From NCBI RefSeq assembly GCF_945862485.1, contig NZ_CAMAYF010000015.1:1-46484 (forward strand): a stretch of DNA of 46,484 nucleotides. Reading direction: 5' to 3'. Below are positions 8,471-20,926 of the stretch, in pieces. Numbering within the stretch: the first letter of the stretch is position 1; every line of letters begins with the position of its first letter. A model generated the notes under the pieces. The model worked only from the letters and a program-made list of their open reading frames with translations. It was not told the DNA's origin and searched no databases. A program made the translations under genes and the position numbers. The DNA is from Sphingorhabdus sp. EL138. GTDB taxonomy: Bacteria > Pseudomonadota > Alphaproteobacteria > Sphingomonadales > Sphingomonadaceae.

Positions 8471-8478
8471 TAGGGCAG

Positions 8479-8566
8479 TCATCTGGGGAGTAGCCACTCG
8501 TTCCACCCGAACGAGACATGCATCAACATATTTGGCCGAGAGGCCATGGTGCATGTGGAGCCACAA
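8479..8566 (+). promoter_or_regulatory. yybP-ykoY (Mn2+) riboswitch
   Basis: The stretch carries the diagnostic 5' element GGGGAGTAGCC (8485-8495), a CTCGTTC/GAACGAG hairpin, the conserved CATCAACATA element, a GGCC/GGCC hairpin closed by an ATGCA/TGCAT stem, and a 3' strand ending GGAGCC that can close the aptamer. This class binds Mn2+ and commonly precedes manganese exporters including TMEM165/GDT1 proteins, exactly the gene found downstream. Between aptamer and start codon, GGTCGGGC (8623-8630) can pair with GCCTGACC (8662-8669) next to the ribosome site, suggesting translational control (inference). Confidence 0.88.
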
Positions 8567-8681
8567 GATCGAAAAAGATCAGGCGGTTCAAGGCGAGACC
8601 AATGACATCGGTTATCCGTTCCGGTCGGGCGGGGTGGCCGGTGGCATTGCGTCGAAAAACTGCCTGACCCGGGATATGTTT

Positions 8682-18898: not shown

Positions 18899-19768
18899 AT
18901 GGCACCAACGGACATAGATGGATTCGCAAGATGGGGCACGGATACACCATCCGTGCCTGTCCTGCTGTCCGTGCCGCATGCCGGGCGTGACTATCCATCG
19001 GAGCTGTTGGATGCATTAAGGCTGCCGCCAGCGGTCCTACTGCGTCTTGAGGACAGATATGCTGACATGTTGACGCGGCGCTGTGTCCAGTTGGGATATC
19101 CTGTGATCATGGCGCACCGGGCGCGGGCGTGGATTGATTTGAACCGCGACGAGCAGGACATTGACACAGAAATGGTGCAAGGGGCGCTGCGAAGCGATTA
19201 TCCCGCACCAGGGATCAAACAACGCGGCGGTCTTGGCCTGATTCCCCGAAGATTGTTAGGCGAGGGGGAATTGTGGAAACGGCAATTTACCTTGGGTGAG
19301 GTGGAGCATCGCATATTGTCATTCCACCGACCCTATCATGAAGCAGTTGCAGATGTGCTTGAACAGATGCGACGGCAGTTTGGCGTTGCTATATTGCTTG
19401 ACCTGCACAGCATGCCGCCAATCCGTGGCGGAACGTCTTTACCAGCGCCGCAATTTGTCATTGGTGACCGTTTTGGCAAAAGTGCAGCGTCGCGATATGC
19501 CGAGTTGTTAATGGCGCGGTTGCGCGCCCAAGGGTTTAACGCTGCGTTGAACCATCCTTATGCTGGCGCCTATATACTCCGCCGCCATGCACGGCCTGGG
19601 TCGAACATCCACGCCATTCAGTTGGAAGTCGACCGGTCACTGTATCTCGATTCCGATTTGCGCTATCCTGGCGTTGGTTTTGACCGCATAAACGCCTTGA
19701 TTTCTAATCTAGTTTCGGCGCTTGTCGACGAAGCTTTGGGTTCCGCTACCTTGATTGCCGCGGAATGA
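18899..19768 (+). CDS. N-formylglutamate amidohydrolase family protein
   Basis: Zinc-dependent hydrolase family that releases glutamate and formate at the end of one histidine degradation route. The 289-residue product contains the family stretches LLSVPHAGRDYP (N-terminus), ARAWIDLNRDEQDID, LLDLHSMPP and AIQLEVDRSLYLD in the expected order. No hut genes are nearby, so the physiological substrate may differ. A clear AAAGGGA site precedes the ATG. It is followed on the opposite strand by a strong terminator and putative sRNA. Confidence 0.88.
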   Translation: MAPTDIDGFARWGTDTPSVPVLLSVPHAGRDYPSELLDALRLPPAVLLRLEDRYADMLTRRCVQLGYPVIMAHRARAWIDLNRDEQDIDTEMVQGALRSDYPAPGIKQRGGLGLIPRRLLGEGELWKRQFTLGEVEHRILSFHRPYHEAVADVLEQMRRQFGVAILLDLHSMPPIRGGTSLPAPQFVIGDRFGKSAASRYAELLMARLRAQGFNAALNHPYAGAYILRRHARPGSNIHAIQLEVDRSLYLDSDLRYPGVGFDRINALISNLVSALVDEALGSATLIAAE

Positions 19769-19772
19769 TCAT

Positions 19773-19803
19773 AAAAAAACCACCCCGGAGGGTTCCGGGG
19801 TGG
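19773..19803 (-). terminator. Rho-independent terminator on the minus strand
   Basis: A perfect 9-bp stem (19780-19788 with 19795-19803, CCACCCCGG/CCGGGGTGG) with a 6-nt loop is followed, on the minus strand, by seven T residues. On the plus strand there is no T run, so it ends a leftward transcript, although it lies just after the stop of the rightward gene. Confidence 0.88.
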
Positions 19804-19890
19804 CCTAGGTTCAGGGAGTTGATGCCCTCACAGGCATCGGTGGACGGAAACGGGAGGGGTTGATTCCATCCATGCCTAAGGATGGGGTTA
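19773..19890 (-). ncRNA. Candidate trans-acting small RNA
   Basis: A leftward transcript of about 110-120 nt ending at the strong terminator would contain hairpin 1 (CCATCC/GGATGG, 19866-19885), a single-stranded linker with CCCCTCCCG (19852-19860), hairpin 2 (GATGCC/GGCATC, 19821-19838), a second linker with ACTCCCTGA, and the terminator hairpin. Unpaired CUCCC motifs that can pair with ribosome-binding sites are typical of alphaproteobacterial regulatory sRNAs (AbcR and MmgR families). There is no coding frame here. The 5' end and promoter are estimated; a TTGAAA lies at 19908-19913 on the minus strand. Family membership is not claimed. Confidence 0.55.
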
Positions 19891-20025
19891 TGGCATTACG
19901 GTTTCAAGACTCTCGTCGAAAACAAGTGCAGTTTGCCGACCAGCCGCCCGATGGTTGCGAGGAATGGTGGATCACCCGCTAGGGTATGACTATCATCAGA
20001 CTTTAGACGCATAGGGCAGCTAGCC

Positions 20026-20065
20026 CATGCCGTCATTTCCCCCAAATAGGTGGCGTGACGGCATG
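20026..20065. repeat. 10-bp inverted repeat downstream of sapC
   Basis: CATGCCGTCA and TGACGGCATG form a perfect stem around a 20-nt loop, starting 15 nt after the sapC stop codon in its reading direction. No U-tract follows, so it may be a 3'-end stabilising hairpin or a Rho-dependent end; function is inferred from place only. Confidence 0.5.
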
Positions 20066-20080
20066 AAGCATTCGTTTGAC

Positions 20081-20860
20081 TTAATTAGAAGGCAGTTCCG
20101 TCACTTGCGGCACCTTACCTTGTGCGACCTGAACTGCAAAGATTTCGCGCATTAATTGCAAAGAGAATAAATGTGCATGGATCAGCGCAAGAATACCGTT
20201 TTGGTTCAACTTGCGCACGGTATCACCGCGAAGCTCGCGCAATTTATTTTCATCGACCATCTTAAAGCCACGATAGATGAAGGGCTGCTCCTGACCTTCT
20301 TGCTGAATAGACACTTCGCCATCCATGAGGAGGTCGAGCTTCTGGATTTCCTCAACAAAGGCGTGCGTTTGCGCGCCAGCATTTTCAAAGTCTTCGCAGA
20401 ACTTCAAAATCGCCTTAGTGTTCTCGCTTGGTTGGCCGTCTTCAAACAAAGGCTGGCCTTCTTCAAATTCACCAACCGCACCGGAAGTTGGATCAAAGCA
20501 CAACGACAGTTCGTCGGTGTCCGGACGCAGTTTTGCAAGTAGGAAGGGATAGCGGCGGACATATGCAGGGATGTAAACGGGGCGTTCAAAATGCCCTTCG
20601 TCATTCATGAAAGTGTTCACGCCTTCATTCATGCCCATCAAAACGAGTGGCACTGGGTTTTCCGATGCGGAGAAGATGATTGGATAGGTACGCGACGCTG
20701 GCACAAATTCTTCAATCGTCAACGGAATGGCATGTTGGCCCTCAAGAAATTTAGCGTTTTCGAGCATGCGTGACTTCCACGTAACATGATCGTTGCTGTT
20801 CAACGGCACGAGGTCGTTGTACAATAGCGGGAGGTTGGCGGCTTGGGGCGCGGTGGCCAT
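20081..20860 (-). CDS. SapC family protein
   Basis: Protein of 259 residues matching the SapC family, first named from a Campylobacter S-layer-associated protein and common in sphingomonads and caulobacters, often beside TonB receptors and tryptophan halogenases. Family stretches include PLLYNDLVPLN, EFVPASRTYPIIF, YIPAYVRRYPFLL and a C-terminal LALIHAHLFSLQLM. No signal peptide is seen. Its biochemical role is unknown. The ATG at 20860 is preceded by GGAG; an ATG four codons upstream overlaps that site and is rejected. A TATAAT hexamer 36-41 nt upstream of the ATG may be its -10 element. Confidence 0.9.
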   Translation of the reverse strand: MATAPQAANLPLLYNDLVPLNSNDHVTWKSRMLENAKFLEGQHAIPLTIEEFVPASRTYPIIFSASENPVPLVLMGMNEGVNTFMNDEGHFERPVYIPAYVRRYPFLLAKLRPDTDELSLCFDPTSGAVGEFEEGQPLFEDGQPSENTKAILKFCEDFENAGAQTHAFVEEIQKLDLLMDGEVSIQQEGQEQPFIYRGFKMVDENKLRELRGDTVRKLNQNGILALIHAHLFSLQLMREIFAVQVAQGKVPQVTELPSN

Positions 20861-20926
20861 ATGTAACTCCATCGTTGAATTATATTAAAAAATTTTTGAA
20901 CGCGCCGTTTAAGCGGATGCCCGCGT

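Follow-up and report, generated by a model that had tools for sequence, protein, structure and literature searches.

A conserved small RNA gene beside an amidohydrolase gene in Sphingomonadaceae: a probable divergent alphaR8 RNA with two C-rich sites

Introduction

What is encoded in a short gap between two protein genes of a sphingomonad, where no protein is evident and one strand reads like a string of hairpins? In the window analysed here – the whole 46,484-nt stretch of DNA from Sphingorhabdus sp. EL138 – such a gap separates an N-formylglutamate amidohydrolase (FGase) gene on the plus strand (18899..19768; PF05013, 222 bits) from a SapC gene on the minus strand (20081..20872; PF07277, 234 bits). 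SapC is a neighbour conserved across Sphingomonadaceae, and FGase is the usual neighbour of alphaR8 RNAs, an alphaproteobacterial family that comprises suhB, MmgR of Sinorhizobium meliloti and SisA-D of Caulobacter crescentus. An earlier note on this DNA had proposed that the minus strand of the gap specifies a small regulatory RNA of AbcR or MmgR type with two unpaired CUCCC motifs. On the evidence of folding, alignment, covariation and an Rfam match, we place a small RNA (sRNA) gene of alphaR8/MmgR type at 19773..19872 on the minus strand, with three hairpins and a predicted transcript of about 100 nt, convergent with the FGase gene and on the same strand as sapC. That this gene is real and conserved seems to us almost beyond dispute; that it specifies an independently transcribed, trans-acting sRNA, the form that the FGase-linked alphaR8 (suhB/MmgR/SisA) RNA takes in Sphingomonadaceae, we consider likely.

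Structure of the RNA

The element is non-coding, as the earlier note had stated: no open reading frame of at least 100 aa overlaps it, and the only minus-strand frame of at least 20 aa across it is just 20 aa long (19873..19811) and has an ATG that is missing, by eye, in the same-genus relatives L011 and L012. It is also strongly structured. The 118-nt interval marked in the earlier note folds with z = -4.7, and the predicted 100-nt transcript (19872 to 19773) has a folding energy of -46.8 kcal/mol, where shuffled sequences average -30.2 (z = -5.06); among 200 shuffles of either, none folded as well as the native sequence.

The 100-nt fold has three hairpins and leaves two C-rich stretches exposed, all read on the minus strand. 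Hairpin 1 (19841..19872), supported by folding and comparison, has the helix UGGAUGGAA/UUUCCGUCCA and an apical loop (19863..19850) that presents the first exposed site, CCCCUCCC, at 19859..19852. Hairpin 2 (19821..19838), GAUGCCU/GGGCAUC, matches in position the short hairpin found in alphaR8 RNAs. It is followed by the single-stranded linker AACUCCCUGAACCU (19807..19820), whose C-rich stretch CUCCCUGAACC, immediately preceding the terminator, contains the second exposed site (CUCCC, 19818..19814) and corresponds to the alphaR8 10-mer UUUCCUCCCU. A Rho-independent terminator (19773..19806; stem 19806..19777, run of seven U 19779..19773) completes the molecule.

Much of the earlier description is borne out by this anatomy – a structured minus-strand RNA between two protein genes, a strong terminator with seven U, two exposed C-rich segments (loop CCCCUCCC and linker CUCCC) – and its order of hairpin, linker and terminator stands for the 3' part. 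The 5' third has to be redrawn: the first C-rich segment lies in the apical loop of hairpin 1 rather than in a linker, and the helix that the note probably had in view, CCAUCC/GGAUGG, overlaps the conserved -10 element (19884..19879) and lacks alignment support, the comparison giving UGGAUGGAA/UUUCCGUCCA instead. The note was also right that the terminator cannot serve the rightward gene; no T run follows the hairpin in the rightward reading, for which reason we rejected a two-way terminator serving the FGase gene.

The covariation analysis in relatives that the note had called for supports all three stems. In a plain MAFFT alignment (n=20), the covariation score was 0.482, compared with 0.211 (sd 0.017) for shuffled and at most 0.134 for slid alignments; both sides have changed in 10/10 pairs of hairpin 1 and 7/7 pairs of hairpin 2, and 75.9% of the cells in hairpin 1 are paired. 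A model-fitted alignment of 72 chosen loci (3 from the DNA search described below and 69 of 120 from named genomes) gave 0.786 against 0.214 when shuffled. RNAalifold, run on the plain alignment of all 30 loci from the DNA search, recovered the terminator and hairpin 2; it missed hairpin 1, which MAFFT misaligns in this alignment. Folded singly, nearly all 30 sequences form a 5' hairpin whose loop contains a C-run, L023 being one exception. The predicted probability of being unpaired is at least 0.97 for the loop in 28/30 sequences and 0.32-0.96 for the linker, the loop value being the best of several 5-letter windows and the linker value that of a fixed window. At one locus, L026, the sRNA terminator is repeated downstream, from position 1554 onwards, in further imperfect copies.

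Promoter and 5' end

Upstream of hairpin 1, comparison of the 30 loci reveals a -35 element, CTTGAA (19903..19908, minus strand; as TTGAAA, 19902..19907), and a -10 element, CATCCT (19879..19884, minus strand), which appears in relatives as TATCTT, TAGTTT or CATTCT. Letter counts across the -35 element are C28 T28 T30 G28 A19 A30, and CTTG(A/C)A is followed by the TATCTT-like hexamer at a spacing of 18 letters in 29 loci and of 17 in one, some hexamers being shifted by one letter. A looser scan found such a -35/-10 pair in 128 of 143 distinct sequences, against 7.9 expected from shuffles. As a scanner for the sigma-70 consensus returned no promoter between 18400 and 20300, the promoter call is a comparative one. 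We infer that the sRNA is transcribed from its own housekeeping-type promoter; its transcript probably begins close to 19872, some 7 nt below the -10 element, rather than at 19890.

The region between this promoter and sapC differs among close relatives. Two sister species carry there, on the same strand, a 185-aa frame for a membrane protein that resembles, by eye, cytochrome b561 (L011:1734-2291, L012:837-1394). The window retains, at 20020..20070, the inverted repeat ATGCCGTCA/TGACGGCAT that surrounds the start of this frame in the sister species, and lacks the frame itself, so the gene may have been lost here. Elsewhere in the window, a manganese (yybP-ykoY) riboswitch lies at 8472..8616 on the plus strand (60 bits).

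Relationship to alphaR8 RNAs

At Rfam's own cut-offs, no family is listed at the element. The Rfam scan proposed in the earlier note thus gave a divided answer: with the cut-off lowered, the best match is indeed suhB/mmgR (RF00519, 19842..19765; E = 4.1e-5 for 551 bases, E = 0.0034 over the whole window), yet its 33.3 bits fall below the 41-bit gathering score. The same holds for the other syntenic Sphingomonadaceae loci scanned (n=19): none passes the cut-off, and only 12 give a match at E<=0.5, the remaining 7 giving none at that level. AbcR1 and AbcR2 (alphaR15), whose exposed motifs pair with transporter mRNAs, resemble the window RNA in having exposed pairing motifs; they differ in that their family is missing from the six Rfam matches at E<=5 for the stretch, and the AbcR half of the earlier proposal was dropped. 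Weak matches to NsiR1, Hrs10, sR084, anti-hemB and U6atac (E 0.89-2.8) were treated as chance.

In the parts of PMC12559287 that bear on the family, alphaR8 RNAs are described as usually adjoining an FGase gene and as combining a weak hairpin with the exposed 10-mer UUUCCUCCCU and a terminator. The window RNA shows this general layout, with the FGase neighbour and the exposed CUCCCU linker common to the family, but in place of the 10-mer itself it has UCAACUCCCU (7/10 letters identical, by eye), and CCUCC is missing from its linker. FGase linkage is usual rather than universal for alphaR8: RF00519 matches 100/190 genomes of the class at E<=1e-4, and among the class loci examined FGase lies on the opposite strand, 0-756 nt beyond the 3' end of the RNA, in 24/30. 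Searches over 40 genomes, namely this one and the order-wide search below, ran with stricter filters, and weak copies may be missed in their counts.

The family relationship is also supported in the reverse direction. A covariance model built from Sphingomonadaceae alone (R1; 20 of the 30 loci) was applied to the 30 class loci selected solely with RF00519; it matches all of them at E<=0.43, and 23 of them at E<=0.01 (one, L201, at a tandem copy). Both L201 and L202 carry three tandem alphaR8 copies within about 600 bases. In other families of Sphingomonadales, loci chosen for their R1 matches (L170-L189) pass the RF00519 cut-off in 18/20 cases and have a convergent FGase gene in 13/20. Because of the FGase linkage, the matches of covariance models in both directions and these intermediates, we regard the window RNA, as judged by sequence, as a divergent alphaR8 variant that is not an Rfam member at the cut-off, and its descent from a common alphaR8 ancestor as very probable. 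The MmgR half of the earlier proposal is upheld on the same grounds.

The genome also holds a second, canonical suhB/mmgR gene that passes the Rfam cut-off (L002, G000:C3:127228-127302, minus strand, 43 bits) and to which R1 has no match at E<=5, so functions may be divided between the two RNAs. It sits between frames that resemble, by eye, an MFS transporter and a LysR regulator. The relevant passages of PMC6563040 describe SuhB of Sphingopyxis granuli TFA as a 61-nt, Hfq-dependent RNA that binds thnR mRNA in carbon catabolite control; by this description it is likewise a sphingomonad suhB sRNA, but shorter, and its counterpart may be either the window RNA or L002. In the literature searched, no paper could be connected with the Sphingomonadaceae form: the text of PMC6970203, on Zymomonas sRNAs, contains neither suhB nor SapC nor amidohydrolase, and no link was drawn, and the single suhB passage of PMC2245857 names none of the four sphingomonad genera looked for.

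Distribution and losses

A DNA search of 199 same-family genomes returned matches in 80, our own genome counted. Within the available flanks of the 30 loci examined, SapC was found at 28, FGase at 27, both at 25 and at least one at all 30. A pattern scan of named genomes added at least 120 stretches, most of them titled Sphingomonas, Novosphingobium, Sphingobium or Erythrobacteraceae and kin; among the matches listed, SapC or FGase accompanies the RNA in 119/120 and both in 94, and the nearest named relatives by SapC identity are Sphingorhabdus contaminans (91%) and S. profundilacus (87%). One record titled Actinobacteria bacterium (L095, CAJCHR010000165.1) has the sphingomonad sRNA, and is perhaps misnamed or a mixed bin.

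Across the order, R1 matches 153/196 genomes, a count that includes those supplying its training sequences. A match is absent in 2/7 same-genus genomes searched (our own among the seven) and in at least nine genomes of genus g77. By eye, the FGase loci of 16 of the 43 R1-negative genomes mostly show a plain terminator or nothing; in L229 a short hairpin, TTCCTCCCTGACTT and a terminator survive, and at L233 and L235 the linker has changed, with a CTTGAAA and C-runs still present. From these losses and diverged copies it follows that the sRNA gene is common but dispensable, and that some genomes scored as lacking it carry diverged copies.

Loop, linker and upstream dyads

Among the 143 distinct sequences, the window's included, 138 have a C-run in the loop of hairpin 1, while the letters of the stem vary freely; by the same criterion 1/20 loci from other families of the order does, and in shorter folds L173 shows such a loop as well. 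The loop letters themselves vary (UCCCCCCUUU, UCCCUC, CCCCUC). In the linker, CCUCC occurs in 140/143 sequences, a figure to be read with the knowledge that these sequences, like the 30 aligned loci, were extracted by the exact motif CTCCCTGAACC, so that linker conservation is partly by construction (CTCCCTGAACC is present in 30/30 loci of the DNA search, and is part of the pattern by which the named set was collected). The three remaining sequences, from the window and two same-genus genomes, have CCUCC in the loop, as does a fourth same-genus locus, L250, again in place of the linker; L249, L152 and L123 have it in both (the L123 hairpin was drawn by eye and differs from its minimum-energy fold).

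In the SapC tree, the four loci without linker CCUCC form a clade (95/92) inside a larger one (97/98) with two named Sphingorhabdus loci that have both copies; the four group together in the FGase tree as well (82/92), which leaves the branching order unresolved. On the simplest reading of these sequences, CCUCC was gained in the loop first and lost from the linker later, in a Sphingorhabdus-like lineage.

A further difference lies upstream. Dyads of the form TGCNNNGCA, which we take to be the PhaR/AniA box, precede 16/29 alphaR8 loci of other orders (0.6 expected), whereas Sphingomonadaceae have them no more often than chance (2/143; 3.2 expected) and the other Sphingomonadales families have none (0/20; 0.2 expected). 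The counts are unchanged if all sets are compared at a single stretch length; the class set comprises 29 of 30 loci, L208 being left out as its linker motif was not found. Within the literature covered, what looks new is the covarying 5' hairpin with its C-rich loop, which sets the Sphingomonadaceae form apart from alphaR8 RNAs at large, the absence of the upstream dyads, and the presence of CCUCC in the loop and its loss from the linker in the window's lineage.

Possible mode of action and targets

PMC12559287, in the passages relevant here, reports that SisA uses UUUCCUCCCU to base-pair with the mRNA leader of a TonB-dependent receptor and represses further targets, and that the sponge CrfA sequesters SisA in a pairing promoted by Hfq. 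Owing to the homology with SisA, repression through the C-rich sites would be expected of the window RNA as well. The housekeeping-type promoter would give an RNA of about 100 nt, ended at its own terminator; Hfq would present the two single-stranded C-rich sites, in the loop of hairpin 1 and in the linker; and these would pair with G-rich Shine-Dalgarno regions, so that translation would be switched off by blocking of the ribosome-binding sites, a plausible mode of repression on present analysis. We infer that the targets would be mRNAs for metabolism and nutrient uptake, those of TonB-dependent receptors probably among them, and that the loop may act as a second seed; action through two sites is plausible, although we hold it at slightly below an even chance.

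The genome has the components that such a scheme calls upon: two tandem Hfq domain matches in one open frame of 189 aa (L275/L276, G000:C2:80553-80984, plus strand) and 24 TonB-dependent receptor matches, 22 of which could be used in a target test as their starts lie within the available stretch. GGGAG, one of six overlapping motifs and picked after looking at this own-genome set, occurs within 26 nt of the start in 6/22 receptors and 1/52 controls (Fisher 0.002). Replication gave 6/28 against 1/21 in the same genus (p = 0.11), 3/20 against 1/35 in distant genera (p = 0.13) and p = 0.013 for the two sets combined, with starts picked by rule and controls that may include wrong starts. Each replication set began with 30 loci, from which 2 (same genus) and 10 (distant) receptors were dropped; of the latter, 3/10 start outside the stretch and the others fell to start picking, the centre rule or duplicates. 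Plain GGAG showed no significant excess in either replication set, and duplex energies did not differ between TonB-receptor starts and controls (p = 0.28, 0.15). The GGGAG excess ahead of receptor start codons is thus suggestive only.

Alternative readings

The element could be no more than the 3' untranslated region of sapC with its terminator, sapC being a gene that lies upstream on the same strand with only about 170 nt between its stop codon and the -35 element in the window. Against this stand the conserved promoter of the sRNA, the 185-aa frame that separates sapC from the RNA in two sister species and the alphaR8 RNAs of other families and orders, which adjoin FGase in examined stretches that gave no SapC match; we consider this reading very improbable. 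Somewhat less remote, though still unlikely, is a separate sphingomonad sRNA family, not descended from alphaR8, in which a CUCCC site, a short hairpin and a terminator arose by convergence. The RF00519 score under the cut-off, the additional 5' hairpin and the true suhB copy elsewhere in the genome would all fit such an origin, as would the weak match of alphaR14 to one relative (27.9 bits) and those of SorX and SorY to some loci of other families; but convergence would then have to account as well for an FGase-convergent position shared with alphaR8 across orders, for graded intermediates in other Sphingomonadales families and for covariance models that match both ways.

Closer to the preferred account, and only a little less probable than the two-site proposal itself, is the possibility that the loop of hairpin 1 serves Hfq binding or stability and that the linker alone pairs with mRNAs. 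SisA pairs through its linker 10-mer (as reported in the passages of PMC12559287 cited above), and the loop letters are variable; yet the loop C-run is kept in 138/143 sequences while the stem changes freely, the loop is predicted to be more consistently open than the linker (at least 0.97 in 28/30 against 0.32-0.96, with the best-window and fixed-window proviso above), and the window and three same-genus loci have CCUCC in the loop only. Taken with descent from alphaR8, these observations lead us to propose, tentatively and at somewhat less than even odds, that Sphingomonadaceae rebuilt the FGase-linked alphaR8 RNA as a two-site regulator, in which a second anti-Shine-Dalgarno site is carried on a covarying 5' hairpin, the upstream dyads are absent and the CCUCC core moved stepwise from linker to loop.

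Significance

Members of the alphaR8 family have been linked to carbon storage in Sinorhizobium (in the relevant passages of PMC8401924) and to nutrient uptake in Caulobacter (in those of PMC12559287). Many sphingomonads carry a form of this RNA that scores under the Rfam cut-off, and its regulon would therefore be overlooked. If the rebuilding proposed here is true, a conserved sRNA has moved its pairing seed from one structural element to another; and should the loop prove to act as a second seed, the loci with CCUCC in the linker only, in both places or in the loop only would form a natural series in which the movement of a pairing site could be tested.
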